From Marinobacter alexandrii (GTDB lineage Bacteria > Pseudomonadota > Gammaproteobacteria > Pseudomonadales > Oleiphilaceae): DNA of 64,000 nt. A model generated the notes under the pieces. That model worked only from the letters and a program-made list of their open reading frames with translations, ran no database searches and was not told where the DNA came from. The stretch spans positions 474,001 through 538,000 of the forward strand of contig NZ_SWKM01000014.1 in assembly GCF_005871205.1 (NCBI RefSeq), given 5' to 3'. This document shows positions 906 through 42,231 of this stretch, one piece after another; the stretch's first letter is position 1; every line of letters begins with the position of its first letter. The position numbers were made by a program, and so were the translations under genes.

Positions 906-1597
906 TGAGGCTGTTAGCCGCCGGAGCATCGGTAAGGGGCCCGGCCCACGAACAGGATGGCTCCCCGAATCAGGATGCTCTTTCTGTGCGCGGGTGTGGT
1001 GGAGGTTGCTTTGTTGCTGTCGCTGACGGACTGGGTAGTCGCTCCCGCAGTCATATCGGTTCTAGGAGAGCGGTCGAGCTGGCTCGCGAGGTTGTTCTCG
1101 ATCTGAAAACCTCTACCAGTGCCGACGTACCTGCTCAGTTGAGTCGAGCATGGCGGTCTGCATTCGCGAATCGCTATGGCGATTATGAGACTACATGCCT
1201 CTGGGCGTGGGTTGATGCTGATGGGCAGGGGCACGTCTGGCAGGCGGGAGATGGTTTGATGCTTATCCGCAGCCAAGGCAAGTTCCGGATTCTATTGGAT
1301 CAGAAGGACGGGTTTGGCAATCAGACAACGACGCTTGCGCAGGCCGAGACCGAGGGTGCCGTCAGTGCTGATATCACACTGACCTCACCAGGTGACGGTG
1401 TACTTCTGATGACAGACGGAATCTCGGATGACCTTATCCCGGAGCAGCTGGAGCCATTTTTCAACGCGATTTATCGACGCCAGAAGCGAAGCAGCAAACG
1501 GCGAATGAAGCGCTGGTTGGAGACAGAGTTAAAACAGTGGTCCACGCCACGCCACGGCGATGACAAGACCATCGCAAGCATTTTCAGAATGGATTAA
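905..1597 (+). CDS. PP2C-family serine/threonine phosphatase
   Basis: A 230-aa PP2C (PPM) phosphatase. Metal-binding signatures are visible: NQD at residues 22-24, ADGLGS around 40-45, MTDGISDD near the middle of the C-terminal half and a terminal GDDKT. These positions supply the aspartates that hold the two Mn/Mg ions. The chosen ATG at 905 overlaps the VWA stop codon; an in-frame start 12 bases upstream is possible but lies inside the VWA gene. The likely role is to reverse phosphorylation by the adjacent kinase, with the VWA protein as substrate or scaffold. It is a minimal catalytic domain with no transmembrane segment. Confidence 0.87.
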   Translation: MRLLAAGASVRGPAHEQDGSPNQDALSVRGCGGGCFVAVADGLGSRSRSHIGSRRAVELAREVVLDLKTSTSADVPAQLSRAWRSAFANRYGDYETTCLWAWVDADGQGHVWQAGDGLMLIRSQGKFRILLDQKDGFGNQTTTLAQAETEGAVSADITLTSPGDGVLLMTDGISDDLIPEQLEPFFNAIYRRQKRSSKRRMKRWLETELKQWSTPRHGDDKTIASIFRMD

Positions 1598-1601
1598 GCA
1601 C

Positions 1602-3002: not shown

Positions 3003-3008
3003 TGAATC

Positions 3009-6000: not shown

Positions 6001-6404
6001 AGCAAGAAGGTGGGTATGAGCCACATGATGATTTCAAATGGACACGGAAGCAAAACGCAGACGGATCCTACAGCCAGGAAGAAAGGCTTCGAGTTGGGTC
6101 AGTGGATGCCTTTCAGGGCAAAGAGTTTGATGTGGTCCTGTTGTCTTGCGTGAGGACCTACCAGGCGATGAAACCTTCAAAAGCTCAGGGGGCAGATGTT
6201 GATGAGCGGGATAAGCAACTGAACCGCCAGTTTGGATTCTTGAGGTTACCAAACCGGATGAACGTGGCAATGAGCCGCCAACGACAGATGTTGATATGCG
6301 TTGGTGATGCTGGTCTGGCAACCAATGCGGATGCCGAAGAAGCAGTCCCTGCTTTGGCCGGATTCTACCAATTATGCGGAGGTGATTATGGCAGCCTTCG
6401 CTGA
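3009..6404 (+). CDS. UPF1/DNA2-like superfamily 1 helicase
   Basis: An 1131-aa protein. The N-terminal ~400 residues are unrecognised. The SF1 helicase core begins with Walker A GPPGTGKT near residue 440, then the motif II block VVVDEAARANP near 780 (DEAA rather than DEAD), VGDDRQLPHM near 806, QFRMHP near 870, VDAFQGKEFD near 1031 and NRMNVAMSR near 1083. The order and spelling match the UPF1/NAM7/DNA2 branch, which unwinds RNA or DNA 5' to 3'. A long helical insert (about 520-730) separates motifs I and II. No nuclease motif was noticed. The gene is translationally coupled to the next one, which starts 17 bases before this stop. In TerY-P neighbourhoods such helicases are considered nucleic-acid-processing effectors. 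Confidence 0.88.
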   Translation: MELKDFPLFSEDLLTLTSKEDLSGFQSGHKVQFQPYDDDWMAIQGDARVVISCSPVDRVLFERLAQRDQVQWLLTTTRKGQLLVQYCAPVEVSPMGLELGLDELILDDLYGKQEIVERNVDLACRWFESQFVVDAEGEYWLALARFSNRAAKGGFQLLGDGWRADVERRDDGALLVKRVTRHVRKGSAFSLLTGEFTFVDASVAAALNSGSQQAILDATLRDNESYLELWNLYNDKEWQNALNQAETLRSLRFVVCEAFEDGRENAWRLIPRTPDDYREFRDRWTGLDLPANTQVDIGVNPPDWMEELATDETQGDAANTPRGTILFKSDHLVFRPASNRKAVRPREKEGWLYLSLAGYRTVGKRRLTAKQSIDSGKRLPQLKWLLEGVAVPAARRRRIDGLTPYAKETFKGGKPTEKQNQALDAALNTPDLAIVIGPPGTGKTQVIAALQRRLAEESQDQNLSGQVLISSFQHDAVDNALDRSDVLGLPATRVGGKRGSGDEETLIAPWLDRHTSYLREKVAAEYEKFPELEKIKQLSESLAFIRVAGYEPDRLADELEQILTRVRELEAHGLILPPGVEAQLEDYISELRSSHHSAGKKVGRDPSVLRKIRSLRETETSFQDDGPDRAWDLLNWLKRNDPRADGELLSFLEQLADAEQPDKSSLMELVSWKSRLLDLNLPDYRPPELRFRIGEKGLKLLNDLERLIESKVQKRKQGVAWVLEQLSDSLSLDRQAAQSVVDEYSMVVGATCQQSAGQQMANLKSVAGFDTSEIEFETVVVDEAARANPLDLFVPMAMAKRRIVLVGDDRQLPHMLEPNIEGQLQEEHQLTEQQLEAFRSSLFERLRIKLQDLEKQDSIRRVVMLDTQFRMHPVLGDFVSQHFYESAGLGKVHSGRGAEDFLFSELFLSGMKELGNYYRDRVCQWINVPPADGKASKRGTSRVREAEAERVADEVRRVMEAGGESLSVGVITFYAAQRDLIMEKLSQTRVNGTPLMVKQEGGYEPHDDFKWTRKQNADGSYSQEERLRVGSVDAFQGKEFDVVLLSCVRTYQAMKPSKAQGADVDERDKQLNRQFGFLRLPNRMNVAMSRQRQMLICVGDAGLATNADAEEAVPALAGFYQLCGGDYGSLR

Positions 6405-7878
6405 GAGCGGAACCTATCTGAAGTTCAGTAAACGTCCAAGGTCAGAATCTCGGTCAGTTTTGTGGCCGGTCCTTGTGCATCGAGTCCTTTACCCGGAGCC
6501 TCGCCAGCCCGAGCTGAACCTTTTTCAGCGCGCAGTTCTTGGACTGATTAGGGCTAATCGCACTAAGCAGGCTGATATTGCCGGGTTGACAGGCTTACAC
6601 CCTGAACTGATCACCTTGATAGTCGCACAGGGTATCAGTAACGGTTGGTTGATGTCGGCTGCGGATAAGTTGACCGATAAGGGCCAAAGCCTGCTGGATG
6701 ATGAGGATGACGAATCTACTAACCTAAAAGCCGGTTTTCTGCTGCAGGATGCGATAACCGGAGACTTCTGGCCTCGAATGGTCACGAGGCTAGAGCAGGT
6801 CGAATCTGTCGACCCTCAAGCCAAGTTTCCGGAATTTTCCATCGAGAGGAAAACGGGCAAGACGTTTAGGCCTTTTCTTGCCAGAGCAAACAAACAGAAC
6901 CTCCCCAGCCTCGATAACGATTTATTGGCTAGAGCCTACCGGGAATACAGAAAGGATTATCGCTCAAGCCAGCAATTGGGCGAAATGCATACCACATCTG
7001 AATATGTGCGTTTGCAAGGCGTTCAGCGCCTCGACGAATCCCCTGAAGCGGCAAGAATTGTGGTTTGGGTGACCGGTGACGAGGAAGGCGACGAGCTTTG
7101 GTCGGTCAATGATCCGTTTGGTCTACGGGAAAATGCTTGGTGGCTTGAGGATGCTCTGAGGCAACTGCTGGAATCTGATACGAATCTTCGGACATACCTG
7201 GCACGACTGATTGGAATTCCCGATGTCGGGGCAATGACCAACGAGCAGTGGTTGAAAGAAATACAGAAGAGAACTGAGCTCGATATCTTGATCGAGTTTC
7301 CATGGGTGGAGGCACAGCCAGATATTAAGCGATATTTTGCCCGGTTATTGAAGTGGAGGCACAAGATCGATTCAGGCTTGGCTTGGGACTCAGACTTGGA
7401 GGCAGCTCTCGGCGATTGCCAGAAGCTTCTTGAGGTTGTCATGCAGTGGTTGATTAAGACTTATCCGGCAAATATTGGTCAGATTCCGAAATCTGGAAAG
7501 CCGGATTGGAGTTTGAATGAACGATTGTTGGGCGCGCTGGCGATTCCTTCTTTCAACAGTGAGGTTACTCGATCATTGGCGAGGCAGGATTTGCGTCAAG
7601 TAATCCGAGCATGCCAGAACCCCACTAGTTCTCTCAAAGCGCTACTGTTTGCGGCAGGAATGGGAGCTCTAGCTGACCATCAGCATCCCCTCAAGGTCCT
7701 ATCAGACGAGGATTTACAGATAGCAAAGCTGTTAAAGCTGGCGGATCTTCGCAACCAAGGTGGTCACGCACAAAGTCGCTTTAACAAACGGAAGATCGAA
7801 GAGATTTCCCAAGAATCAGTGATCGAAAATATTGAATACGCAAAGAATTTCACGGAATGCTTTAAGGATTGGATGTAA
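6388..7878 (+). CDS. Uncharacterised protein with N-terminal winged-helix-like region and C-terminal HEPN-like motif
   Basis: A 496-aa protein not recognised as a whole. The ATG at 6388 has a GGAGG ribosome site and lies inside the helicase end. Residues ~45-110 look like a winged helix-turn-helix (helices around LFQRAVLGLI and TGLHPELITLI). The centre is helical and charged. Near the C-terminus lies R455-N-Q-G-G-H460, the R-N-x3-H pattern of HEPN ribonucleases, followed by a final helix ending IEYAKNFTECF, which is also how many HEPN domains end. An all-helical stretch precedes it. HEPN assignment is by motif and position only. If correct, it is the probable toxic RNase effector of the operon. 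Its stop (TAA) overlaps the next ATG by one base. Confidence 0.7.
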   Translation: MAAFAESGTYLKFSKRPRSESRSVLWPVLVHRVLYPEPRQPELNLFQRAVLGLIRANRTKQADIAGLTGLHPELITLIVAQGISNGWLMSAADKLTDKGQSLLDDEDDESTNLKAGFLLQDAITGDFWPRMVTRLEQVESVDPQAKFPEFSIERKTGKTFRPFLARANKQNLPSLDNDLLARAYREYRKDYRSSQQLGEMHTTSEYVRLQGVQRLDESPEAARIVVWVTGDEEGDELWSVNDPFGLRENAWWLEDALRQLLESDTNLRTYLARLIGIPDVGAMTNEQWLKEIQKRTELDILIEFPWVEAQPDIKRYFARLLKWRHKIDSGLAWDSDLEAALGDCQKLLEVVMQWLIKTYPANIGQIPKSGKPDWSLNERLLGALAIPSFNSEVTRSLARQDLRQVIRACQNPTSSLKALLFAAGMGALADHQHPLKVLSDEDLQIAKLLKLADLRNQGGHAQSRFNKRKIEEISQESVIENIEYAKNFTECFKDWM

Positions 7879-10337
7879 TGGCTAAGAGAAATGGAAATAA
7901 GCGCAGCTCAGCTCAAGGAATGCCAGATAAATCAGCAGGCCCAGCTCGTCAGACCTCGTCACTAGAAAAATATATCCCGATGTGGACCGCTTCATTCGAG
8001 AATGCGTCAAAGGTATACCAATCCCTTGGCTCCAGCATGGATATCGATGTTGACCAAGAATGGCTTGGGAAAGTACTGGATACGTTACAGAAGGCTGACG
8101 ACACGGCTCCCGTAGTCCGGTGGATAGAAAAATTCGCGGATGTATGTAAAGAGCTCGGTAAATATCAGGAGAGGCTCAATGATGAGTATCTCGAGCGGTG
8201 GGAGCAGGCCAGTAAATTGGGCGAGGACAATGATTCCGAGAGAAAGCGTCTTGAAGACGAAGCCCAACTCATCGAGAAAGAGCGGGGCTCCCTGGAGCAG
8301 CGGACTGCTGAATTGGATGAGGCCGAGCGCCGGGTGGCCACCAAGAGGAGTGAGCTACTGAGCACGGAGCGATCCCTGAAGCAGAGAGAGGCAAACGCCG
8401 AGGCAGGATTTGCCGAGCAAAATGAGAAAGCTCTTAAACAGCTTGAAGCACAACAGCAACAGTTGGCGAGGCAGAGAGAGGCTGATCTTGAAGAGCTGCA
8501 AAACCGGAAGAGGGCTTTAGCCGATGAGATCAGGCAGGCCGAGATGCAGCTGTTGGAAATCAAACATAGTTGCTCGGAGGCGGAGGCTGAGCGCACGAGA
8601 CTGCTCGATCAGCGCGAGCAAGAGCTTGGGCAGGAAAAAGCCAAACTGGACCGGGGTCGCGGCAGGCTGGAGCGGGAGTGGGCAGACCTGAAATCTTCAC
8701 AAGTTTTAATCAAAGAAGAGGTCGCGACCGAATTGGAGCAAGAGCGGGCTGGATTCGAGCGGCAGCTCGAAAAAATCGCAGGACAACGCGATAAAGCTTG
8801 GGCTCAGACCCAGGAATTGAAAGAGCGATTGTATGATCTACAAGAACTTAGCAATGCCCTAGGCGAGAGAACTCCGGATGAAATTCTTGAGGGCCTTGAA
8901 AACCTGAAAAGCGAAAATGGGGACCTCAAAAGGAAGCTTGAAGAATCTGATGCCGCAGAATTGCAGCGTGATAACCAGTATTTACGTGACAAAGTTTCGG
9001 ATCTCGAGCGAGATCTCGCTACCATGCGTCCCGACCTTGACGCGGCTCGTCGGGAATTAAGTGTTAAGCGTGTGGCGGCAACGGAGCTTGAGGCCATCGC
9101 CCGCGAAAAGCGTGTTCTTGAATCGCACAAGAATACCTTGTCCTTTCACATTGACGATCTTGAGAGTCGCATCGACCAGTTGACCAACGCACAGAAGGCG
9201 AAGACTTCTTTTCCCGCAATGTCGCATATGGACACTGACAAAAGCTTTCAGGCAAGTATCGAATTGGAACATGTTCCGGATTTGAAGAGCTTTGCTGGTG
9301 AACTGCGACACCGTATTGCCCGAGCTGAGAAGAACGTAGAGCTGTTTTATCCAATTGAGGATATCCGACTTCTTCTGGGTGGCTTAGCGATGAGTCAGTT
9401 GCATGTGTTCCAGGGGATCAGTGGTACCGGTAAGACCAGTCTTGCGAAGGCCTTCGCTAAGGCGATGGGTGGCTTCTGCCAGGACATAGCTGTTCAGGCT
9501 GGTTGGAGAGACCGTGATGATTTACTCGGTCATTTTAATGCATTTGAGCGTCGGTTTTACGAGAAGGACTGCTTGCAGGCATTATATAAGGCGCAGACCC
9601 CTCACTGGCAGGATACCTGTAATGTCATCCTTCTCGATGAGATGAACCTCTCACGCCCTGAACAGTACTTTGCGGAGTTTCTATCTGCTCTTGAAAAGAA
9701 CAACCCGGACGAGCGATTGATTAGTCTTTCAGAAACGGCGTTGCCCGGAGCGCCCAATATGCTCCGAGACGGTCGTCAAATCCTTGTTCCAAAAAATGTC
9801 TGGTTCATTGGTACGGCAAACCACGATGAAACGACAAATGAGTTGGCAGACAAGACGTACGACCGCTCTCACGTAATGACGCTGCCAAAGCAGGACGATA
9901 GTTTTGAAATCAGGGAATATCAACCTACAAGCTACTCCTTCAGGTCGTTGCAAAACGCTTTTGATAACGCCTGTAAGGAGCACGAAACATCTGTAAAAAG
10001 TTTGCTGGGTAAGTTGACCGGTAATGGATTCACAAGACAGCTTGAGAATGACTTTGGTCTGGGTTGGGGAAATCGGTTTGAGAAACAGGCGCTGCGATTT
10101 GTCCCTGTGATGTTGGCATCAGGAGCGACTCGCGGAGAGGCTTTGGACCATCTTCTCGCAAGCAGGGTGATGCGCCAGGGTAAGGTGACTGGTCGCTTTG
10201 ATGTAAACGCAGACTCGGTGCGCAAACTAATGGCTTCTTTGGAAACATTCTGGGACCAGTCGGGCCTTGATAGCGCACCGGTTACGTCACTTGAGCTGCT
10301 AGAGAAAGACATTAAGCGCAAGGAAGGTGGCTTTTAA
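7878..10337 (+). CDS. McrB-like AAA+ ATPase with long coiled coil
   Basis: An 819-aa protein. Residues ~115-440 are strongly charged, rich in E, K, Q, R and L and predicted coiled coil. The AAA+ module follows: Walker A GISGTGKT at 513-520, Walker B ILLDEMN with Asp587 and Glu588, and sensor-like GTANHDETT starting at Gly645 with an arginine-finger-type DRSH shortly after. These spellings are those of McrB and related MoxR-helix-2-insert GTPase/ATPases (DEMNLSRPE, GTANxDxTT). McrB proper is a GTPase that translocates DNA for the McrC nuclease; here the usual DNA-binding N-terminus is replaced by the coiled coil. The start ATG overlaps the previous stop, and the stop overlaps the next start. 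Confidence 0.87.
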   Translation: MAKRNGNKRSSAQGMPDKSAGPARQTSSLEKYIPMWTASFENASKVYQSLGSSMDIDVDQEWLGKVLDTLQKADDTAPVVRWIEKFADVCKELGKYQERLNDEYLERWEQASKLGEDNDSERKRLEDEAQLIEKERGSLEQRTAELDEAERRVATKRSELLSTERSLKQREANAEAGFAEQNEKALKQLEAQQQQLARQREADLEELQNRKRALADEIRQAEMQLLEIKHSCSEAEAERTRLLDQREQELGQEKAKLDRGRGRLEREWADLKSSQVLIKEEVATELEQERAGFERQLEKIAGQRDKAWAQTQELKERLYDLQELSNALGERTPDEILEGLENLKSENGDLKRKLEESDAAELQRDNQYLRDKVSDLERDLATMRPDLDAARRELSVKRVAATELEAIAREKRVLESHKNTLSFHIDDLESRIDQLTNAQKAKTSFPAMSHMDTDKSFQASIELEHVPDLKSFAGELRHRIARAEKNVELFYPIEDIRLLLGGLAMSQLHVFQGISGTGKTSLAKAFAKAMGGFCQDIAVQAGWRDRDDLLGHFNAFERRFYEKDCLQALYKAQTPHWQDTCNVILLDEMNLSRPEQYFAEFLSALEKNNPDERLISLSETALPGAPNMLRDGRQILVPKNVWFIGTANHDETTNELADKTYDRSHVMTLPKQDDSFEIREYQPTSYSFRSLQNAFDNACKEHETSVKSLLGKLTGNGFTRQLENDFGLGWGNRFEKQALRFVPVMLASGATRGEALDHLLASRVMRQGKVTGRFDVNADSVRKLMASLETFWDQSGLDSAPVTSLELLEKDIKRKEGGF

Positions 10338-12220
10338 TGTGGTTGGACCGCCTCACAGGTGAACGTCGTAAGGATTTGCCCGAAGTTATAGGGTCGGGGC
10401 GATATCTGGCTGAAGCGAAATTAACTGATCAACATAAGGTGGGCCCAGGAGCCGGCAGCCTATTGGTCGATGATGGTAGTGAAGTCGCCATTGTTGATGG
10501 CCAGCGGAAATCCTTCAGGCTGCCCGCCAGATCTCTGGCCCAGAAGGTGGAGTTATTCGAGCGTATCCTCGATACGATTGATTCGAGCATCGATAACGAG
10601 ACTGAGTTGGCCTCTCCGTTGATGCCTGAGGGGGTAGTCAATGAAGATAGCCATTTGAACTCTTTTGACTCAAAACTGCTCAAGATTATCGGGGCAGGGC
10701 ATCTTCATCAGATATCGATGAGACCGCGATTGGATCTGCACTATGAAGATGAAGTCACAGATGTCGCGAGGGCGAAGAGATTGGCCAAGGGGGCGTTGGT
10801 TCACCTCGCCTCACATTCTGAATGCTGGCAACGGCAGACCTTGTCCGGTGTGATACCCAAGAGAGTGAAGGCCCGGTTCAGTGAGGACGACTTTAATATT
10901 TACGAGAACCGAGTTTACGCACGGTTGCTCGACAAGATAGAACAATATCTGAGCAAACGAGTCGGTACGCTACGGCAGTTGCAGACTGCTGTTAGTGAGG
11001 CTTTGGAGTTCTACGGAGCTAATGACCTGCATCATCGCCTGACCGAAGAGATTTGCAGGCTTTGGGGAAAAGCCTTCACGCAGGATTCAACCAGCAAAGC
11101 GTCCGAACAGCTCACGAAGACGCTTGAGCAGCTCGAGAATGCACTGGGAATAGTGCGTGGCCTTAAGCAGAGAGGCCTTTACCTATTGGTTAGTCGCGCC
11201 GCACAGATCGGAGATGGACTCCATCTTACGAATATCCTAAGTCATGATCAGCATTACCGCCATTTACCGATTCTTTGGAACGAGTTGAGGAATGTCATTG
11301 GTGGCAAACGGACAACACCTGATGAACGAAGAGAACTAAATGAAGGACTGAATCGTGCCTATTCGAGGTATGCCGGGCTGGTTCTGCGTCATGCGTTGAC
11401 CCCTTATCTCGGAAATGAGTTTTCATCCAATTGGGCCGGCCTTAATCTCAAGCTTAAACAGGTGGGCCTCGATTGGCAGTTACTTTTATCGCCCAGTGAC
11501 TCGAACAGAGCAGAGCGAGTTCTGCTTGAAATTGTACCTTGGATGGGACTGAGCGACCGTCCGGAGGACGTTCAAGCCGATCAGAATGATGAGCGCCTTT
11601 CCGCGAGGATATTAGCTTGGCCAAACTTGAGTGACGATCGTTTATACTCCGGTGAAGATGCTATCGACGGTGTGTGGGTGCAGCTATCTCCATTCGATCT
11701 GTATGGCGTCGAGAGGTTTGGTCGTCTGGTTGATCAGCTACTGCAGAGAGAGCTGGTGTCTGGATACGGTCGCCCAATCATCAAGGTGCCAACTAGGTCC
11801 CTAGAGGTGGCAGAGAATGTTAAAAGGCTGGCGGTAAACAGGGAAAAGTACCAAATCAGAGTTCTTGAGGCTTTGTCCCCAGTAGATCTTTCGAATGTGG
11901 AACGTTCACTGGAAAGCGAAAATGCTGCAGCCCAAGCTTCTGAACTTGATCGGAGACACCAAGAGATTGTGGCGCTCCAGAAATGCCCGGTTTGCGCCGG
12001 ATCCGTTAAGGTTATTCATCAAGAACCTAGTGGATTTGTTGCTGACTGCGGTCCTTGTAAGACGAAGCGGTATTTGCGGAGCAATGGGGCAGGGCTGGAG
12101 TATGAGCAGAGTCTCGCTGGCTTAAGTGATTTCAGGTTGGTGGGTAGAAGGAGTTATTCGTTTCAGATTGGATGGCAGCCATTAAACAAAAATGTCGCTG
12201 GTCGAGCGTCATTTTCATAA
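10337..12220 (+). CDS. McrC/DUF2357-like partner protein with zinc ribbon
   Basis: A 627-aa protein. The segment YENRVYARLL at residues 189-198 resembles the ENR-containing helix conserved in DUF2357/McrC-like proteins that pair with McrB-like ATPases. Near the C-terminus is a zinc ribbon, C550-x2-C553 and C571-x2-C574. I could not find a clear PD-(D/E)xK nuclease motif, so nuclease activity is not shown. It is directly coupled to the McrB-like gene (TAATG overlap), which supports a two-component machine. It is the last gene of the operon, and 103 bases later the convergent integrase gene ends. Family assignment rests on context plus the ENR motif. Confidence 0.68.
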   Translation: MWLDRLTGERRKDLPEVIGSGRYLAEAKLTDQHKVGPGAGSLLVDDGSEVAIVDGQRKSFRLPARSLAQKVELFERILDTIDSSIDNETELASPLMPEGVVNEDSHLNSFDSKLLKIIGAGHLHQISMRPRLDLHYEDEVTDVARAKRLAKGALVHLASHSECWQRQTLSGVIPKRVKARFSEDDFNIYENRVYARLLDKIEQYLSKRVGTLRQLQTAVSEALEFYGANDLHHRLTEEICRLWGKAFTQDSTSKASEQLTKTLEQLENALGIVRGLKQRGLYLLVSRAAQIGDGLHLTNILSHDQHYRHLPILWNELRNVIGGKRTTPDERRELNEGLNRAYSRYAGLVLRHALTPYLGNEFSSNWAGLNLKLKQVGLDWQLLLSPSDSNRAERVLLEIVPWMGLSDRPEDVQADQNDERLSARILAWPNLSDDRLYSGEDAIDGVWVQLSPFDLYGVERFGRLVDQLLQRELVSGYGRPIIKVPTRSLEVAENVKRLAVNREKYQIRVLEALSPVDLSNVERSLESENAAAQASELDRRHQEIVALQKCPVCAGSVKVIHQEPSGFVADCGPCKTKRYLRSNGAGLEYEQSLAGLSDFRLVGRRSYSFQIGWQPLNKNVAGRASFS

Positions 12221-12323
12221 GCCAACAAAAGCGAAACGGCTCTTACTATGTCCAGTTTTAGTACAGGATAAAAAGTCGTACTCAATGGTGCTCAGAGATA
12301 ACCAGCACTATCCGTTTGCTGAA

Positions 12324-13121
12324 TTAGCCAACATATTGGTACCCGGCGTTCTGCAATGCTTCTTTTAGTGACTCCTCAGGGGGTTCTTCATAAATTAGCG
12401 TCGTAGACGGCGAAACGTGGCCAGCAATTTTTTGAGCGACTTTAACTGATTTTTTTTGTTCGTGAATGATATTTGTCATTAAAGTCCTCCGTCCGCTATG
12501 GGAACTTGCCCTCTCAATACCCGCCCAATGTCTCTGCATCAGCGCTAAATGCTCCTGAAGTGTATTGGGAGAGTATGGGCCTCCTTTCTGAGTCAGGAAT
12601 AGAGAATCAGTCTTTTTCACCGAAGGCTGCGCGGCCAAGCGGATGAAAAGGTAATTTTCTATAGCCGTTCTCAGCGCAACGTCATTCATCGGAAGATCGC
12701 GCGATTTACCGCGATGCTTCTTAACCTCGGGATAAAAATCCTCCGGTTTGATCTCGGCGCCGGCTTTAGCCATGGTTTCAATTCGCTGAACAAGCTGGTG
12801 GAAATCGTAAACACTGAAGCTGATCCGACGGCGTTGGTAAGTTGATTTGGATCGCCTAAGAGCATCGGCACCTTTGGTGTAGGCCGCAGGCAACGCCAGG
12901 ATTTCTTTAAGCTTGAAGGAACGCTGGCCAGAATTGTCAGGGCCGAGTTCGGCAACGTCTTTGATCTGTAAAAGCGCAATTTCCTGGACTCGCAACCCAA
13001 GCTTGAAGCTAATCTGCACCAGCGCCGTATTTTTTCCCGGATAGCGATGCTCTTGGATCGCGCTCAAGAGGTGGGCGAACTGATCTGGCGTTAGTACGCG
13101 TGCCTGGCCGGTTTTGCTCAT
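12324..13121 (-). CDS. Tyrosine recombinase / phage-type integrase
   Basis: A 265-aa site-specific recombinase. The catalytic pattern is present: first Arg in GLRVQEIALL, HSGRR (H-x2-R), then GHVSPSTTLIY where the second His and the Tyr nucleophile lie. The SAM-like N-terminal core-binding domain is short. Of two in-frame starts the inner ATG (13121) was chosen because AGGA sits nine bases upstream, while the outer one has no spacing. It converges on the McrBC-like operon and is the only mobility gene next to the seven-gene island. No tRNA adjoins it, so the attachment site is not evident. It may be the island integrase or a solitary chromosomal recombinase. Confidence 0.9.
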   Translation of the reverse strand: MSKTGQARVLTPDQFAHLLSAIQEHRYPGKNTALVQISFKLGLRVQEIALLQIKDVAELGPDNSGQRSFKLKEILALPAAYTKGADALRRSKSTYQRRRISFSVYDFHQLVQRIETMAKAGAEIKPEDFYPEVKKHRGKSRDLPMNDVALRTAIENYLFIRLAAQPSVKKTDSLFLTQKGGPYSPNTLQEHLALMQRHWAGIERASSHSGRRTLMTNIIHEQKKSVKVAQKIAGHVSPSTTLIYEEPPEESLKEALQNAGYQYVG

Positions 13122-13223
13122 TAGCATTGCTCCTGGTAACGCATAGGTGCAGCAGGAAAGGGCGAAAATAAAATCCGTAATAATGTTATTTTAACGGATT
13201 TTAGCCTGGTTGCTTGAAGAATA

Positions 13224-35099: not shown

Positions 35100-35768
35100 A
35101 TGGCAAAGAAGGCCAAACCTAGCGTTGACAAAATTGTCAAAAAGGTAAACAAGGAATTCGAAAAAACGTCCTCTCAGATTGAGGGACTGGTCAATGATGC
35201 GCTGAAGCAGTTTGACAGCCTGCAGCAACAAGTTCAGGAGCCTGTGCGAAAGCTTCTCAAAGAGGTCGATGAACTTCGCGATCGCGAAATGAAACGTTTC
35301 AACGAGGAGTTTGAACGCCGTCTGAACGAATTCCACGAACTACAGAACAGCATCCTGGAGCGTCTTGGTGTCGCCTCCAAGGACGTTGCAAAAGACGTCA
35401 AGAAACAGGCTGAGCAGGCCAAGAAGCAAGCAAAGTCTGTGAGTAGTGCGACCAGTTCAGCGACCTCGACCGCGAAGAAGGCCGCTGCGCCCAAGTCGAC
35501 TGCCAAGAAGCCTGCGGCAAAGAAACCAGCGGCCAAAAAGCCCGCAGCAAAGAAACCGGCGGTTAGTGAAGCTAAGCCAGTAAACAAGAGTGACCTCACG
35601 TTGGTGAAAGGCATTGGCCCGGCCACCGCGAAAAAAATGAAGGACGCAGGTATTACCTCCATCGATCAGATTGCTAACCCCTCCGCCGCCGATCAGGAAA
35701 AGCTGAAGGCTTTCTCCAACGTTAAAGGATTTGACCAGTTCAGCACCGAAGCTAAGAAAATCATCTGA
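35100..35768 (+). CDS. Coiled-coil protein with AAKKP repeats and helix-hairpin-helix C-terminus
   Basis: A 222-aa protein. Residues ~5-100 are amphipathic helices resembling phasins. Residues ~125-165 are Ala/Lys/Pro repeats (AAKKP units) like the histone-H1-like tails of PhaF-type phasins and AlgP. The last ~50 residues are a helix-hairpin-helix fold (VKGIGPATAKKMKDAGI). It may bind DNA or polyester granules and help segregate them. The ATG with AAGGAGA upstream was chosen over a longer frame. Its stop overlaps the selD-fusion start (TGATG), a coupling with no obvious functional reason. Confidence 0.7.
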   Translation: MAKKAKPSVDKIVKKVNKEFEKTSSQIEGLVNDALKQFDSLQQQVQEPVRKLLKEVDELRDREMKRFNEEFERRLNEFHELQNSILERLGVASKDVAKDVKKQAEQAKKQAKSVSSATSSATSTAKKAAAPKSTAKKPAAKKPAAKKPAAKKPAVSEAKPVNKSDLTLVKGIGPATAKKMKDAGITSIDQIANPSAADQEKLKAFSNVKGFDQFSTEAKKII

Positions 35769-38044
35769 TGCGAACGCCTGACCAGCCTGTATTACGGGAT
35801 ATTGTCCTGATTGGCGGCGGGCACAGCCACGTCGGGGTGTTAAAACGGTTCGCTATGAACCCGGTACCCGGCGTGCGCCTGACCCTCATCTGTCGCGACA
35901 CCCACACCCCCTACTCCGGCATGTTGCCCGGCTACGTTGCCGGTCACTACAGCTACGATGATGTCCATATCGATCTCAGCAAGCTTGCGGAATTTGCAGG
36001 CGCTCGATTCTATCGGGCTGAAGCCATCGGTATCGATCGGGAGAACAAGCGTGTGCTGTGCCGTGAGCGGCCAAATGTTCCGTACGATCTCCTTTCGATC
36101 AACATTGGTTCCTCCCCCCGGGTAAACGAAGTGGAAGGGGCTTCTGAGCATGCCGTTCCCGTTAAGCCCATCACTGGTTTTAACAACCGTTGGCTTGCCC
36201 TACTCTCACGAATTGAAAATCACGAAGGCCCGCTGACCGTGGGCGTAGTCGGCGCCGGTGCCGGTGGCGTGGAACTCACACTGGCCATGCAGTTCCGCCT
36301 TACCCGCGAACTTAAACAGCGCGGTAAAGATCCTGACCAGCTCCACTTTCATCTGTTTGATGCTGCGGATCAGATCCTGCCCACGCACAATTCCAAAGTG
36401 CGGGCCGTGTTTGAGAAAACCCTGGCTGAGCGCAATGTAAAAGTTCACCTCGGATCGCCAGTGCAGAAAGTTCAGGAAGGCCTACTGCATACCGAATCCG
36501 GCAAATCGCTACAGGTTGATGAAGTCTTGTGGGTTACCCGCGCCGGTGGACCTGAGTGGCTGAAGGATACGGGCCTCGCTCTTGACGACGGTCTGTTTAT
36601 CCGGGTACGCGATACGCTGCAGGCCGAAAACGACGACAGCATCTTTGCCGCAGGCGATATTGCCAACGTGCTCAATCATCCGCGGGAAAAGGCCGGCGTG
36701 TTTGCGGTTCGCCAGGGCCCGCCTCTGGCCGACAACCTCAAGCGGCTGGCTGTGGGCAAGGCACCCAAGGATTTCCAGCCCCAGAAGAACTGGTTGGCGC
36801 TGATCAGTACCGGTGACAAGTACGCTATTGCCTCCCGGGGCAATTTTGAAATGGACGGCGCTGCTGTCTGGCGCTGGAAAGACTGGATCGATCGTCGCTT
36901 CATGAAAAAATTCAACGATCTCCCGGAGATGAAGGACGACGCCAAGCTTCCCGATACCGCGGCGGCCCAAAACCCGGAAGAGGCGTCTCAGGCGATTTCG
37001 GCGGTAGCCATGCGTTGTGGCGGATGTGGTGCCAAAGTTGGCAGCACTGTGTTGTCCCGTGCCCTCGGCGAACTGCGCCCGATCGATCGGGACGATATCG
37101 TGATTGGTCTGCACGCACCGGATGATGCTGCCGTGTTGCGCGTCCCACCGGGCAAGGCGGTGGTTCATACCGTCGACTTCTTCCGGGCGTTTATTGACGA
37201 CCCCTATGTGTTTGGCCGCGTTGCCGCCAACCACAGCCTGGGTGATGTGTTCGCCATGGGCGCCGAAGCACAGAGTGCGACAGCCGTTGCCACAGTGCCA
37301 TACGGCATCGAATCCAAGGTTGAGGATGTCGTCTACCAGATGATGTCTGGCGCTGTAGAGGTTTTGAATGAGGCGGGCTGCGCCCTGGTCGGCGGGCATA
37401 CCGGTGAAGGCAAGGAACTGGCGCTGGGTTTTGCGGTAAACGGCCTGATCGATCCGGACGAAGTCATGAGCAAAGGTGGCCTGCGCGCCGGTGATGCTCT
37501 GATTCTGACCAAACCGATTGGTACCGGAACGCTGTTTGCAGCTCACGCCAAACTGGCCGCCAGGGGACGCTGGATTGATAGCGCTCTGAGCTCCATGATC
37601 CAATCCAACAAACTGGGTGCCGAATGCCTCAGGCGTTATGGCTCCCGGGCCTGTACCGACGTGACCGGTTTCGGGCTGCTCGGGCACCTGGTTGAGATGA
37701 CCCGGCCCTCTGGCGTTGATGCCGAGCTCGACTTGTCTGCCATCCCGGTGCTGCCAGGTGCAGAGGAAACCGCCGCGGCAGGCATTCTGAGTTCGCTGCA
37801 ACCGGCCAATATCCGCCTGCGTCGCGGCATTCGTGATCAGGAAAAGTGGGTAAATCACCCCAGATACCCGCTGATCTTCGATCCTCAGACCGCCGGTGGC
37901 CTGCTCGCCAGTGTCGCCGCTGATCAGGCTGAGGCCTGCGTGCGCGAGCTGAAAGCGCTGGGCTATCCCCACACGGCCATCATCGGCCGGGTTACAGCCC
38001 AGGACATGCAGGGCGCCATCGAACCTATCTCGCTCAAGGATTAA
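35768..38044 (+). CDS. selD: Flavoprotein oxidoreductase - selenide, water dikinase fusion
   Basis: A 758-aa fusion. Residues 1-~400 are a pyridine-nucleotide-disulfide oxidoreductase of the NADH-dehydrogenase type: FAD-binding GGGHSH at 16-21, a second dinucleotide site VGAGAGGVEL, and AAGDIAN. Residues ~412-758 are SelD: catalytic Cys420 and Lys423 in CGGCGAKVG (equivalents of E. coli Cys17 and Lys20), DDAAVL, VGGHTGEGKE and DVTGFGLLGH. SelD makes selenophosphate from selenide and ATP. The flavoprotein half may reduce selenium species to selenide, which is inference. The active residue is Cys, not selenocysteine. It converges on senB. Confidence 0.93.
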   Translation: MRTPDQPVLRDIVLIGGGHSHVGVLKRFAMNPVPGVRLTLICRDTHTPYSGMLPGYVAGHYSYDDVHIDLSKLAEFAGARFYRAEAIGIDRENKRVLCRERPNVPYDLLSINIGSSPRVNEVEGASEHAVPVKPITGFNNRWLALLSRIENHEGPLTVGVVGAGAGGVELTLAMQFRLTRELKQRGKDPDQLHFHLFDAADQILPTHNSKVRAVFEKTLAERNVKVHLGSPVQKVQEGLLHTESGKSLQVDEVLWVTRAGGPEWLKDTGLALDDGLFIRVRDTLQAENDDSIFAAGDIANVLNHPREKAGVFAVRQGPPLADNLKRLAVGKAPKDFQPQKNWLALISTGDKYAIASRGNFEMDGAAVWRWKDWIDRRFMKKFNDLPEMKDDAKLPDTAAAQNPEEASQAISAVAMRCGGCGAKVGSTVLSRALGELRPIDRDDIVIGLHAPDDAAVLRVPPGKAVVHTVDFFRAFIDDPYVFGRVAANHSLGDVFAMGAEAQSATAVATVPYGIESKVEDVVYQMMSGAVEVLNEAGCALVGGHTGEGKELALGFAVNGLIDPDEVMSKGGLRAGDALILTKPIGTGTLFAAHAKLAARGRWIDSALSSMIQSNKLGAECLRRYGSRACTDVTGFGLLGHLVEMTRPSGVDAELDLSAIPVLPGAEETAAAGILSSLQPANIRLRRGIRDQEKWVNHPRYPLIFDPQTAGGLLASVAADQAEACVRELKALGYPHTAIIGRVTAQDMQGAIEPISLKD

Positions 38045-38045
38045 A

Positions 38046-38075
38046 GGCTTAGCTTAGCTTAGCTTAGCCTAGCCC
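38046..38075. repeat. Pentanucleotide tandem repeat (AGCTT)
   Basis: Six 5-bp units, GGCTT, three perfect AGCTT, AGCCT and AGCCC, fill the gap between the selD-fusion stop and the last codons of senB. The senB stop codon lies inside the array. No terminator hairpin was found in it. Confidence 0.75.
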
Positions 38076-39052
38076 TCAAGATTGGAGCGGCGCTGGAGAG
38101 CTATTTCCAGTGCCCGCTCCAGTGAGCGTTGTTCGTTCTCTGGGGTGAACAGAGAGGCACGTTCACTCACCTGCCCCTTAAGCCGTTTCAGAAATTCCGG
38201 ATCGGATTCTGCCTTCTGCAGCAATCTGGCCAATGCTGCATCATCCCGGGCCCGGTAATAGCCCTGGTAGTCTTTGCCCAGCAACCCCCGATTACCGGGA
38301 ATGTCTGAGGCTATGATCGGCAACCCTGCCCGGCAGGCTTCCGACACCACGTTCGCACCTCCCTCCATCACCGAACTCATCACCATCAACTGGCACTGCG
38401 CCATCAGGTTTTGTGTGTTGGGCTTGTCCAGCTCACCGAGCCACTGAAAACGCGGGTTTTCGGCCATTTGCTGTTCTACCAGGGCTTGCCATTGAGCATT
38501 GTGGGGCTTGCCGGCATTGAGAATACGCACCCGGGACTCAGCCGTCAGTAACCGTACAGCCATCGCCGCCCGCAGCGAATCCTTCTCTTCCCGCAAATGA
38601 CCGATCACACAAACATCGAACGTCTCGGACGTGATCGCCTTGTTGGTGGCGGGCGGGATCTCATTGGCCGATTGATAGAGAGTAAGCAGTTTGCCTGCGA
38701 ACTCCTCCGGAATATCTTCCGAAACCAATGCGTGCAAACCGATCAGCACATCGGCCGCAGCCATGGATGCCCGGGTGGGAAGCGGGTATTCCTGTTGATG
38801 CCGGTAAATGTCGGTGCCGGTCAGTGCCAGAATCAACGGTGTTTCCGGCCAGCATTTGCGGAAGGTTTGAATGGCATCGTGGCTGCGCCAGGCATGCAGT
38901 GCGATAAACAGGTCACAGGGCGCGCCATCGTACTCAGTGACAACATTGACCTGATGCCCGGCATTGCCCAACAGTGATGCCCACCGTTCAGCGGTCGCCC
39001 GATTGCCGGCCTTTGAACCAGGCGGCGCTGGTGTAATCAGAGTAATCTGCAT
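38069..39052 (-). CDS. senB: SenB-type selenosugar synthase (glycosyltransferase)
   Basis: A 327-aa GT-B glycosyltransferase of the TIGR04348 type, judged by ITLITPAPPGSKAGNR at the N-terminus, YDGAPCDLFIALHA, LALTGTDIYR and the C-terminal MEGGANVVSEACRAGLP. SenB enzymes join selenophosphate and a UDP-sugar to form a selenosugar. The SelD fusion next door would supply the selenophosphate. The ATG at 39052 has AGGAAG upstream; a longer frame begins at 39157 but reads through a low-complexity Glu/Asp segment. No SenA (selenoneine synthase) is present here, so the final product is open. Assignment from memory of the family; not verified. Confidence 0.8.
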   Translation of the reverse strand: MQITLITPAPPGSKAGNRATAERWASLLGNAGHQVNVVTEYDGAPCDLFIALHAWRSHDAIQTFRKCWPETPLILALTGTDIYRHQQEYPLPTRASMAAADVLIGLHALVSEDIPEEFAGKLLTLYQSANEIPPATNKAITSETFDVCVIGHLREEKDSLRAAMAVRLLTAESRVRILNAGKPHNAQWQALVEQQMAENPRFQWLGELDKPNTQNLMAQCQLMVMSSVMEGGANVVSEACRAGLPIIASDIPGNRGLLGKDYQGYYRARDDAALARLLQKAESDPEFLKRLKGQVSERASLFTPENEQRSLERALEIALQRRSNLEG

Positions 39053-39236
39053 GGCGGCTGTCTTCCTGGTCGTTTGCTCGCGACAATCATTTTTTTCGTC
39101 AGGCTGCTCTTTTTCTGGACTGCAATCGTATAGCTGTTCCGAGACGTCGTAAATCACGGTATGCTGATGAAGCCAGTATTTTCGGCAGCTTACAACTCAA
39201 AAGAACGAACCATCCCCGGAAAGAAAGGACCCTCAA

Positions 39237-40106
39237 ATGGCTCTGAATATCATACGGAAATTGGCCGCCGCAAGTGCCATGCTGTTCGCTTGTTCGGCCG
39301 CTGTTTCAGCCCAGACTCTCGTGTTCACCGCGATTCCTGATGAAGATGAAACCAAGCTTGTTGAGCGCTTCCGTGGTATCGCTGACTATCTGTCTGAGAA
39401 TCTGGACGTTGATGTTCGCTACATCCCGGTGAAATCCTACGCCGCAGCCGTGTCTGCATTCCGCAACAATCAGGTGCAGCTGGCCTGGTTTGGTGGCCTG
39501 TCTGGCGTACAGGCGCGCTCGCTGGTGCCCGGCTCCGAGGCGATCGCCCAAGGTGTTGAGGACCAGGCGTTTTATTCTCACATCATTGCCCATAAAAGCA
39601 CCGGCCTGAACGAAGCTGAAGATCTGCCAGAGGCGCTGCGTGGGAAAACCTTCACGTTTGGCTCCAAAGGTTCAACCTCCGGCCGTCTGATCCCCGAATA
39701 CTACATCCGCGAAGCCTTCAACGAAGCGCCGGACGACGTGTTCTCACGGGTTGGCTTTAGTGGTAACCACACTCGCACCCTGCGCCTGGTTGAAGCGGGC
39801 ACTTATGAAGTGGGCGCCATCAACTTTTCCGTCTGGGATAAAGAAACCAAAGACGGCAACGTGGACACCGATGCGGTCAAGGTCATCTGGACGACACCCA
39901 GCTACCCCAACTACCAGTGGAGCATTCGCGGTGATGCGGACGAGCGGTTTGGCGAAGGCTTTACCGATCGGGTTCAGCAGGCGCTGTTGAACATGAAGGA
40001 TGAGGAGCTGCTCAACAGTTTCCCGCGTTCCGGTTTCATCCCGGTTTCCAATGACGCCTACGCGCCGATAGAAGCCGTAGGAAAGCAGATTGGAATCATC
40101 GATTAA
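39237..40106 (+). CDS. Putative selenium-oxyanion ABC transporter substrate-binding protein (PhnD-like)
   Basis: A 289-aa periplasmic protein: signal peptide to ~26 (AVSAQ), then a phosphonate-binding-type fold (VFTAIPDEDETKL, LAWFGGLSGVQAR, FTFGSKGSTSGRLIP). This matches, as I recall it, the TIGR04553 group, named for putative selenate transport because the gene travels with selD and the SenB-type glycosyltransferase, exactly the arrangement here. A phosphonate role is the alternative but no phn lyase genes are present. It diverges from senB across 184 bases, which must hold both promoters. AAAGGA precedes the ATG. Confidence 0.82.
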   Translation: MALNIIRKLAAASAMLFACSAAVSAQTLVFTAIPDEDETKLVERFRGIADYLSENLDVDVRYIPVKSYAAAVSAFRNNQVQLAWFGGLSGVQARSLVPGSEAIAQGVEDQAFYSHIIAHKSTGLNEAEDLPEALRGKTFTFGSKGSTSGRLIPEYYIREAFNEAPDDVFSRVGFSGNHTRTLRLVEAGTYEVGAINFSVWDKETKDGNVDTDAVKVIWTTPSYPNYQWSIRGDADERFGEGFTDRVQQALLNMKDEELLNSFPRSGFIPVSNDAYAPIEAVGKQIGIID

Positions 40107-40756
40107 TGTCGGGATTTGATCTGTCTGGCCTGACGGCCTCGTTTGGAGGGGAGCGGGTGATTGGCCCGCTTTCGCTCCAAGTAAAGGAAGGAGAGCGAGT
40201 TGCGTTGGTCGGCAAGAGCGGCGCTGGCAAATCGACGCTGATCAGCCTGATTCATCAGCACGTAGGCGGTACCTCTTCCCTGGTTCCGCAAGACCTTGGA
40301 CTGGTGAATGCCCTGCCGGTATTTCACAACGTGTATATGGGGCAACTTGACGCCCACCCCACCTGGTACAACACCCTTACCCTGATGCGCCCGTTCTCCA
40401 AGGACTCAGCCGCGGTGCGCGCGCTGCTCAAAGATCTTTCCATGCCGGAAAAAATCTGGATGCCGACGGCTTCCCTGTCCGGCGGCCAACGACAAAGGGT
40501 GGCGATCGCCAGGGCGGTGTTTCGAAAAGCAGGCTTGTTATTGGCGGATGAGCCTGTGTCGGCACTGGACGGCCCGATGTCTCACCTGGTGATGGACCTG
40601 ATGAGCAAGCGATTTCCCACCAGCGTTGTGGCTTTGCACGACGTAGAGCTGGCACTGCAATACTGCACCCGCATCGTCGGCATTCAGGACGGCCAGATTG
40701 CTCTGGATGAATACAGCGAGCGACTGACTTCCGCCGACATTACCCCACTGTACTGA
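40106..40756 (+). CDS. ABC transporter ATP-binding protein (PhnC-like, selenium locus)
   Basis: A 216-aa ATPase subunit. Walker A GKSGAGKST, signature LSGGQRQRVAIARA, Walker B LLLADEPVSALDG and the H-loop His of ALHDVELAL are present. It is shorter than typical PhnC (~260 aa) because the N-terminal and helical regions are trimmed. Its ATG overlaps the binding-protein stop by one base (TAATG), and the permease begins eight bases after its stop, so the three make one importer. Confidence 0.88.
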   Translation: MSGFDLSGLTASFGGERVIGPLSLQVKEGERVALVGKSGAGKSTLISLIHQHVGGTSSLVPQDLGLVNALPVFHNVYMGQLDAHPTWYNTLTLMRPFSKDSAAVRALLKDLSMPEKIWMPTASLSGGQRQRVAIARAVFRKAGLLLADEPVSALDGPMSHLVMDLMSKRFPTSVVALHDVELALQYCTRIVGIQDGQIALDEYSERLTSADITPLY

Positions 40757-40764
40757 CGCCTCCC

Positions 40765-42231
40765 ATGTTCTCCTCACCTACGGTTCGAGTCAGTTTTCTA
40801 TTTGTTGCCATTGCCCTGGTCGCGCTGGTGTTTGCCGACGTTGCCATCACGGCCGCCAACCCCTGGAAAGACCTGGGCCGCTTTTTCATGGGCATTGTCA
40901 CTCCGGACTTTTTCAGCTCCGAGGGCGTTGCGCTAGCGCTATTGCGCACGGTGGCCTTTGCCTTCGTGGGTGTGGCGTTGGGCGGCCTGTGCGGTTTCGT
41001 TCTGTCTCTGGTGTATCGCAACCCGGCGGTGCGCATGTTCTGCGCGTTTATCCGCGCCATCCATGAGCTTTTCTGGGCCCTGATATTTCTGCAATTCTTC
41101 GGCTTTCACCCGCTCACCGGTGTATTGGCCATCGCGATCCCTTACGCCGGTATTTTTGCCAAGGTGTATTCCGAGATCTTTGAAGAGGCGGACCCAACCC
41201 CAGGCCGCCTTCTGCCGCCAGGAACCGGCGTGGTGTCTGCATTCCTGTACACCCGCATTCCGGATTGCTGGGTTCAACTGAGAACCTACACCGCCTACCG
41301 GCTGGAGTGCGGTTTGCGCTCTAGCGCGATCCTGGGCTTTGTCGGGCTGCCAACCCTGGGCTTTTTCCTGGAATCCGCGTTTTCCCAGGGCCATTACTCC
41401 GAAGCCGGGGCCATGCTGATTCTGTTTTATGTACTGATCGCCACCATGCCATTGTGGGTCAAGCCCAAGCTGCTCCCGGTCTACATCCTCGGCGCGCCGT
41501 TTTTTCTCGGTGAGGGCCTGCCCATCGTCTGGGGCAATGTGGAGCGGTTTTTCACCCAGGATATTATTCCGTCGCCCCTTCGGAACGGTGAGGGAATGGG
41601 CGGCCTGATGCCGTGGCTCGGGGATGTAATGGCGACCGAGGCGCTGCCCGGCATCTGGAACACCCTGGTGCTTACCCAGATTGCCCTGGTGGCCACAGGA
41701 TTGATTGCTCTGCTGACCTTTCCGCTGATATCCAACCACTTTGGCGGGCCGGTGCGCCGCACTGGCGGTCACATTTTTCTGGTGATTGCCCGCTCTACCC
41801 CGGAGTACATTCTTGCGTACATTCTCCTGCAGCTCTGGGGGCCATCAATGTTGCCAGCGGTAGTCGCCCTGGCCCTGCATAATGGCGGCATCATCGGGCA
41901 TTTGATCGGTCGGCAATCCAGTGCAATAGACCTGCGCCCCGATGCGGCGACTGGCTTCAACCGCTACACCTACGAGCTGGTGCCGCGTGTGTACCGGGCG
42001 TTCCTGGCGTTCCTGTTCTATCGCTGGGAGATCATCATGCGGGAAACCGCAATACTGGGCATCCTGGGGATTTACACCCTCGGGTTCTATGTTGACAGCG
42101 CCATTCAGAACATCCAGTTTGACCGAGCGATGATGCTGATCCTGGTAACGGCTTTGCTGAACATCGGCGTCGACGCGCTTGGTCGATTCATCCGAAAGAA
42201 GCTGGCACTTCAGACCATGCCAACCTGTTAG
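40765..42231 (+). CDS. ABC transporter permease, tandem PhnE-like
   Basis: A 488-aa inner-membrane permease with about 11-12 hydrophobic segments arranged as two PhnE-like halves (~1-240 and ~280-488). Each has the cytoplasmic coupling region (EIFEEADPTPGRLLPPGTG in the first; the second has DLRPDAATGFNRYTYELVPRV). A tandem permease removes the need for a homodimer, which is known in the putative selenate transporter group. It closes the importer operon. Confidence 0.85.
   Translation: MFSSPTVRVSFLFVAIALVALVFADVAITAANPWKDLGRFFMGIVTPDFFSSEGVALALLRTVAFAFVGVALGGLCGFVLSLVYRNPAVRMFCAFIRAIHELFWALIFLQFFGFHPLTGVLAIAIPYAGIFAKVYSEIFEEADPTPGRLLPPGTGVVSAFLYTRIPDCWVQLRTYTAYRLECGLRSSAILGFVGLPTLGFFLESAFSQGHYSEAGAMLILFYVLIATMPLWVKPKLLPVYILGAPFFLGEGLPIVWGNVERFFTQDIIPSPLRNGEGMGGLMPWLGDVMATEALPGIWNTLVLTQIALVATGLIALLTFPLISNHFGGPVRRTGGHIFLVIARSTPEYILAYILLQLWGPSMLPAVVALALHNGGIIGHLIGRQSSAIDLRPDAATGFNRYTYELVPRVYRAFLAFLFYRWEIIMRETAILGILGIYTLGFYVDSAIQNIQFDRAMMLILVTALLNIGVDALGRFIRKKLALQTMPTC

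Follow-up and report, generated by a model that had tools for sequence, protein, structure and literature searches.

The window analyzed here is a 64,000-nucleotide stretch of the Marinobacter alexandrii genome (4.34 Mb in 19 contigs; contig C14), in which five genes spanning positions 35768 to 42231 probably form a selenium-assimilation locus that feeds a selenometabolite along a route of a TIGR04553 importer, SelD, SenB, OvsA, and MnmH. The first gene (35768 to 38044, forward strand) encodes a 758-amino-acid oxidoreductase-SelD fusion, with an FAD/NAD oxidoreductase at residues 11 to 382 and a selenophosphate synthase at about 415 to 747 (TIGR03169, 507.1 bits, cutoff 310; TIGR00476, 302.2 bits, cutoff 125). 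Convergent with it and 24 bp away lies a gene for a SenB-type selenosugar synthase (38069 to 39052, reverse strand; TIGR04348, 407.7 bits, cutoff 300); its start was taken as the ATG at 39052, and the open frame extends to 39157. Across a divergent intergenic region of 184 bp (39053 to 39236, no strand assigned) begin three forward-strand genes for an importer. These encode a periplasmic binding protein (39237 to 40106; TIGR04553, 417.3 bits, cutoff 250), an ATP-binding cassette (ABC) transporter ATPase of 216 amino acids (40106 to 40756; Pfam ABC_tran, 83 bits, cutoff 25), and a 488-amino-acid permease of two fused PhnE-like halves (40765 to 42231), which gave a PhnE-like match in two stretches and no Pfam match. 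The start codon of the ATPase gene overlaps the 3' end of the binding protein gene. Every gene named in the initial annotation is present at its coordinates, and family scores confirm the SelD fusion, SenB, and the divergent importer.

Gene order is identical in M. sediminum and M. similis (loci L007 and L008). Because both species retain it, the grouping is not due to chance. The SelD fusion, binding protein, ATPase, and permease are 94 to 98% identical to their counterparts in these species, and SenB is 88% identical to that of M. sediminum and 86% to that of M. similis. Within the divergent intergenic region, a block starting at 39124 (AATCGTATAGCTGTTC...) appears on visual inspection to be conserved in five of the six Marinobacter loci aligned and is a candidate promoter/operator. 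No Rfam match was obtained at the gathering threshold between 30000 and 48000, and a sigma-70 promoter search found 1 promoter, fewer than in shuffled sequence (3.1).

When the fusion is aligned with 3U0O, a selenide, water dikinase that we take to be the E. coli protein, two presumably catalytic residues of the GCGxK motif, Cys and Lys, prove to be retained (GCGAK in the window, GCGCK in 3U0O). The fusion missed the threshold of the TIGR04369 "fusion_not_SelD" model (471.3 versus 700), and it is the only SelD above cutoff in the whole genome, two weaker matches falling short. Alignment of SenB to 8JJN showed that all 10 of the 10 published active-site residues checked are present (N20, T23, H58, R61, T83, T85, D86, R155, K158, and E231, in V. 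paradoxus numbering); the EGGAHV motif reads EGGANV in the window protein. The roles of these residues are described in PMC10891094 (papers are cited here by accession). By family and active-site residues, this SenB is predicted to make a selenosugar.

The importer appears, by score, to lie outside the PhnDCE phosphonate transporter equivalogs: the binding protein, ATPase, and permease scored 156.1, 154.8, and 201.1 bits against the PhnD, PhnC, and PhnE models, under the cutoffs of 261.1, 266.1, and 216.7, respectively. The closest solved proteins by sequence and Foldseek rank were PhnD1 of Synechococcus MITS9220 (7S6G) and Prochlorococcus MIT9301 (5LQ5 and 5LQ8), to which the predicted structure of the binding protein (mean predicted local distance difference test score, 95.1) showed structural-alignment identities of 45, 39, and 39% at template modeling (TM) scores of 0.66 to 0.69. 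Aligned stretches of PhnD1 themselves exceed the TIGR04553 cutoff of 250 (7S6G, 335.6 bits; 5LQ5, 302.7 bits), while that of Pseudomonas stutzeri PtxB (5O2J) falls below it (164.9 bits). The window binding protein retains the PhnD1 pocket residues D11, Y44, S124-T125-S126, H156, N174, and Y204 from the list of ligand-binding residues in PMC10284923. Two pocket positions are changed: T65 to Ser, as in 5LQ5, and D203 to Asn in the window protein and its kin, an exchange also reported in some picocyanobacteria (PMC10284923). We considered D203N as a selenium signature and rejected it, because selD- or mnmH-linked importers of other genera retain Asp. Separately, binding proteins in genomes G271 (L066:8571-9422) and G143 (L067:9602-10390) carry Asn-Asn or Asn-Thr at capping positions 203/204 and perhaps bind another ligand.

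The selenium link of the importer was quantified in 398 Pseudomonadota genomes, in which TIGR04553 occurs in 34, SenB in 13, and SelD in 129. SelD is present in 32/34 genomes with the importer and in 97/364 without it (Fisher test, 3.7e-15, kinship ignored); counted by genus, the figures are 20/21 and 66/191 (4.7e-8, with kinship not fully removed). The importer genomes without SelD are G143 and G263 (78% complete). SelD occurs in each of the 13 SenB genomes, and the importer in 8 of them (P = 1.2e-6). In the 33 other importer genomes, a stretch of about 20 kb containing the importer was then searched by tblastn for SelD, SenB, SenA, and MnmH; three of these stretches are cut by contig ends (L063, L084, and L086). 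At least one of selD, senA/senB, and mnmH lies in the stretch around the importer in 14/34 genomes, the window included. G356 has selA about 2.4 kb from the importer, and counting it brings the linked importers to 15/34 genomes and 10/21 genera. At an assumed chance of 2% per genome (our own estimate), the probability of this linkage is 4e-17, or 3e-12 by genus.

In G383, from the same order as the window, the window layout recurs with a senA (YNF triad; see below) between senB and the importer and an egtD at the opposite end. In G366, G019, and G202, egtD, senA, senB, and the importer are grouped, with selD (the SenA of G202 scored 378.8 bits, under the cutoff of 420). The importer accompanies selD and mnmH in G054, G207, G379, G372, and G387 and selD in G271. 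Plasmid records matched in number (n = 644 at 1e-25, mostly distant), and five importer loci among them were opened. A Sphaerotilus plasmid carries an uninterrupted run of mnmH, ATPase, permease, binding protein, and selD, and in a Paracoccus liaowanqingii plasmid selA and formate dehydrogenase genes lie a few kb from the importer. Taken together, these loci suggest that where selenium is used the importer is often present as well, regardless of end product. A stricter rule, selenium genes at every importer, was rejected, as 19/34 loci show none in the stretch read. The initial annotation had proposed that the locus imports selenium, activates it, and attaches it to a sugar. The latter two steps hold at the level of families and residues for SelD and SenB; for the first, co-occurrence and linkage support selenium specificity, and the cargo is putative.

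Several observations weigh against a selenium cargo, and some of them also favor the strongest alternative, namely, that the importer is a phosphite, phosphate, or phosphonate transporter merely located beside selenium genes. The binding protein belongs to the PhnD superfamily, and its pocket, nearly the same as that of PhnD1, fails to tell the two proteins apart. The PhnD1 kin prefer phosphite and bind phosphate weakly: Prochlorococcus PhnD1 binds phosphite at 0.051 μM, methylphosphonate at 109 μM, and phosphate at 182 μM (PMC5700983), Synechococcus PhnD1 proteins bind phosphite at 1.7 to 2.8 μM (two rows), and one of the latter (7S6G) crystallized with copurified phosphate (PMC10284923). The same paper cites one strain as inducing PhnD1CE under phosphorus deficiency, and its authors suggest that the PhnD1 system is a phosphate transporter expressed constitutively. 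When phosphate is depleted, a Pseudomonas putida protein named phosphonate/selenate binding protein, a possible homologue by name, increases from 0.309 to 0.959%, and in the same data PstS1 increases from 0.328 to 2.680. TM-score alone ranks the apo, open structure of PtxB best for the predicted model (0.77 to 0.80, versus 0.66 to 0.69 for PhnD1), perhaps because that model is open. Many of the survey importers are merely 33 to 40% identical to the window importer, and in G143, a genome without SelD, neither an ATPase nor a permease was detected next to the binding protein. The 19 unlinked loci lack selD, senA/B, mnmH, and selA in the stretch read (three of the stretches are cut by contig ends, and selenoprotein genes were not looked for), and 3/5 opened plasmid loci show no selenium gene. 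No informative recurrent neighbor was found among the unlinked loci; one family occurs in five (the one member scanned is xylose-isomerase-like) and another in four (the one scanned is a periplasmic binding protein). In the mostly open-access literature, we came across no study in which a TIGR04553 protein binds or takes up selenium and none that links PhnD1 to selenium; the string "selen" is absent from the main texts of PMC5700983, PMC10284923, and the review PMC8786288.

Even so, we consider a phosphorus cargo unlikely. All three components score under the PhnD, PhnC, and PhnE cutoffs, SelD is present in 32/34 importer genomes, and the importer is linked to selenium genes in 15/34 genomes and 10/21 genera. 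The physiological record of PhnD1 also argues against it: two picocyanobacterial strains with PhnD1 and without a second system failed to grow on phosphite or methylphosphonate (PMC10284923). The role of picocyanobacterial PhnD1 has been called unknown or paradoxical (the latter in PMC10284923). That paper reports that the affinity of PhnD1 for hypophosphite was not measurable and deduces that a ligand needs three trigonally arranged oxygens.

The same geometry bears on which selenium oxyanion would be carried if the importer serves selenium, as we favor. Selenite is trigonal, its three oxygens forming a pyramid as in the phosphite bound by the PhnD1 kin. Selenate is tetrahedral like sulfate, and sulfate is far more abundant in seawater. 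These shapes make selenite, in our view, a better candidate cargo than selenate. A broader proposal follows the same lines, and we offer it tentatively, as a serious possibility that falls somewhat short of probable: TIGR04553 importers would supply selenium equally for selenoproteins, selenouridine, selenoneine, and ovoselenol and would take selenite via a phosphite-shaped pocket. PhnD1 of Prochlorococcus and of marine Synechococcus would belong among them, and its "phosphite" affinity would be a by-product of its binding of selenite. If this is true, one of the core nutrient transporters in abundant cyanobacteria of the ocean would be reinterpreted as a selenium system, not a phosphorus system. 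According to PMC13188914, prokaryotes have no identified transport system that is specific for selenium and of high affinity; the TIGR04553 importer is a concrete candidate for the missing bacterial selenium importer.

The enzyme that would act after SenB is encoded elsewhere. The genome has one gene of the formylglycine-generating enzyme (FGE) type, an open frame of 476 amino acids (C1:476792-478222) on a different contig from selD-senB. It scored 419.1 to 419.2 bits against the NCBI SenA model NF041186, just short of the cutoff of 420, and 628.7 bits against OvsA (8U41/8U42, structures that carry the name selenoxide synthase) versus 152 bits against SenA (8RYZ/8K5I). In the printed alignments, three positions set the OvsA variant 8UX5 apart from 8U41 (M, Q, and A become Y, N, and F), and from this variant we infer that the triad residues decide the substrate. 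The MQA triad is found in 37/71 aligned rows, consisting of 8U41 and 36 Marinobacter OvsA-like rows (31 distinct genes). The other 34 rows, which are SenA/EgtB-like and some of them duplicated, read YNF (n = 26), YNY (n = 4), Y-x-F (n = 3), or FYA (n = 1, the OvoA of G138, whose alignment is doubtful at the triad). As judged from these rows, the triad tells OvsA apart from SenA and EgtB, a distinction that the curated SenA model misses. By score and triad, the product of the FGE-type gene is of the OvsA (ovoselenol synthase) type and is not a SenA.

The difficulty with the curated model extends beyond this genome. NF041186 scores five whole OvsA-type proteins (G000, G070, G138, G174, and G400) at 419 to 441 bits. 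Because these scores straddle the cutoff of 420, ovoselenol synthases may be annotated as "selenoneine synthase"; by its score in a standard database model, the key enzyme comes close to being misnamed.

Other selenium genes refine the role of the locus, which the initial annotation took for a selenium-metabolite route rather than only a selenoprotein or tRNA route. The position of SelD beside SenB speaks for this reading, as does the lack of a SelA match in the genome at E 1e-25 (SelB and tRNA-Sec were not searched genome-wide). The description is incomplete, since MnmH is present (548.3 bits versus 361) and SelD can therefore serve selenouridine too. Thus, of the further genes that the annotation had pointed to, mnmH is found in the genome, selA gave no match at that threshold, and an OvsA-type gene stands in the place of senA.

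OvsA and SenB travel together across the genus. Seventy-one Marinobacter genomes were searched with a joined query, and the counts that follow are among the matches listed (to about E 1e-104), where methyltransferase absences are not readable. OvsA was found in 63 genomes, SenB in 62, both in 62, and neither in 8; G455 has OvsA without SenB. All 62 SenB genomes have OvsA, one of them broken (G453, in pieces; by position, M. similis itself). EgtD was found in 7/71 and a methyltransferase adjoining OvsA in 22/71. SenB and SelD would thus feed a recently described selenium antioxidant pathway present in most sampled Marinobacter genomes. In G138, G174, and G070, a same-strand methyltransferase gene directly follows ovsA, and that of G138 scored 299.4 against the ovothiol-type model TIGR04345 (cutoff 170). 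In a search of 17 genomes for EgtD, no match was obtained in G000, G138, M. sediminum, M. similis, or G219; G070 and G174 each have EgtD beside an EgtB.

The likely product of the window genome, as judged from these genes, is ovoselenol, with its unmethylated precursor as the alternative. The final methylation is putative. The window genome has no methyltransferase gene adjoining ovsA, and none was found on contig C1, on C14:1-77000, or in the window, where the sole hit of the methyltransferase search (43 bits, 26% identity) was judged to be chance; a third window-genome match, outside the matches listed, was not located on these same stretches.

The cell might instead keep the selenosugar itself or the product of an unknown partner, with OvsA dispensable in the lineage. 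In M. similis A3d10 (L120 and L145), ovsA is broken in two places and senB is full-length, so SenB persists there without a full OvsA. G219 has a senB-selD pair (L068:9574-11588), and searches of that genome for SenA or OvsA (at 1e-20) and for EgtD (at 1e-10) gave no match; it may make another end product from selenium, or SenB may have a novel partner there. We regard this explanation as improbable for the window genome, given that ovsA is full-length both there and in M. sediminum and that SenB and OvsA occur together in 62/62 SenB genomes among the matches listed. Selenoneine, made by SenB feeding a true SenA that acts on hercynine, is suggested by the near miss to the SenA model and by the egtD-senA-importer clusters of other genomes (G383, G366, G019, and G202, the SenA of the last being under cutoff), but we reject it as very improbable, because no EgtD match was found in the genome, hence no own hercynine by the known route, and because the enzyme matches OvsA far better than SenA, with an MQA triad and not YNF. 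As a separate observation, the Methylorubrum populi plasmid pMPOP01 (L139, 25 kb) carries a senA-senB pair beside an insertion-sequence transposase gene, possibly mobile selenoneine genes.

With ovoselenol or its precursor as the favored product, the following route can be proposed. A selenium oxyanion, with selenite favored, would enter through the TIGR04553 importer (binding protein, ATPase, and fused permease). Selenium would then be reduced to selenide, perhaps with the aid of the oxidoreductase half of the fusion, a role proposed for the fused oxidoreductase in PMC2432076. As their family, motif, and active-site residues suggest, the SelD half would make selenophosphate, and SenB would couple selenium to a UDP-sugar. 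OvsA, from its separate contig, would build the C-Se bond onto histidine to give ovoselenol or the unmethylated form. Part of the selenophosphate would pass to MnmH, whose gene is present, for selenouridine in tRNA.

Elsewhere in the window, six co-directional open frames (893 to 13127) beside a gene that looks integrase-like by eye include a phosphatase-like protein (also by eye), a kinase-like protein, an MkoA-like helicase (276 bits), a weak MkoB match (31 bits), a protein matching PDC-M26A (124 bits), and one frame without a match. This region is a candidate Mokosh-like or other anti-phage defense island.

Finally, the locus can be set against known systems. The oxidoreductase-SelD fusion, SenB, OvsA, and the TIGR04553 name are already known; new are the OvsA type of the enzyme that would act after SenB, the numbers that tie the importer to selenium, and the relationship of the importer to PhnD1 of picocyanobacteria. 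Compared with the NADH oxidoreductase-SelD fusion of PMC2432076, the window fusion is additionally accompanied by SenB and an importer. The senA-senB-senC selenoneine cluster of Variovorax, reportedly the work of Kayrouz et al. in 2022, shares with the window a SenB with the same active-site residues and an adjoining SelD; the window locus differs in its oxidoreductase-fused SelD and its importer and lacks senA and egtD. OvsA is said to build the C-Se bond onto histidine in ovoselenol biosynthesis, reportedly as set out by the same group in 2024 (Kayrouz et al., Nat Chem). The window genome has in common with that pathway an OvsA by score and triad, with SenB and SelD in the same genome. In related genomes an ovothiol-type methyltransferase adjoins OvsA, whereas the window ovsA stands on a separate contig with no adjoining methyltransferase, and the importer belongs to the selD-senB locus.

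Among transport systems, YedE has been predicted as a selenium transporter (PMC5322559) and is a membrane protein unrelated to the window importer. An ABC-type ATPase has been noted near orphan selD genes, where it was not assigned to a system (PMC5029168). "Selenate ABC transporter" appears as an annotation in PMC13077682, with the speculation that selenite is exported, and in a proteome table of PMC9426549. The window importer agrees with the NCBIfam entry TIGR04553, "putative selenate ABC transporter," in having a binding protein well over the cutoff together with an ATPase and a permease, and it departs from the name of that entry in that selenite appears the better candidate than selenate. 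Picocyanobacterial PhnD1, which has been studied as a phosphorus transporter, has nearly the same pocket and scores at the level of TIGR04553. Its conserved neighbor according to PMC10284923 is tesA, which is no selenium gene.

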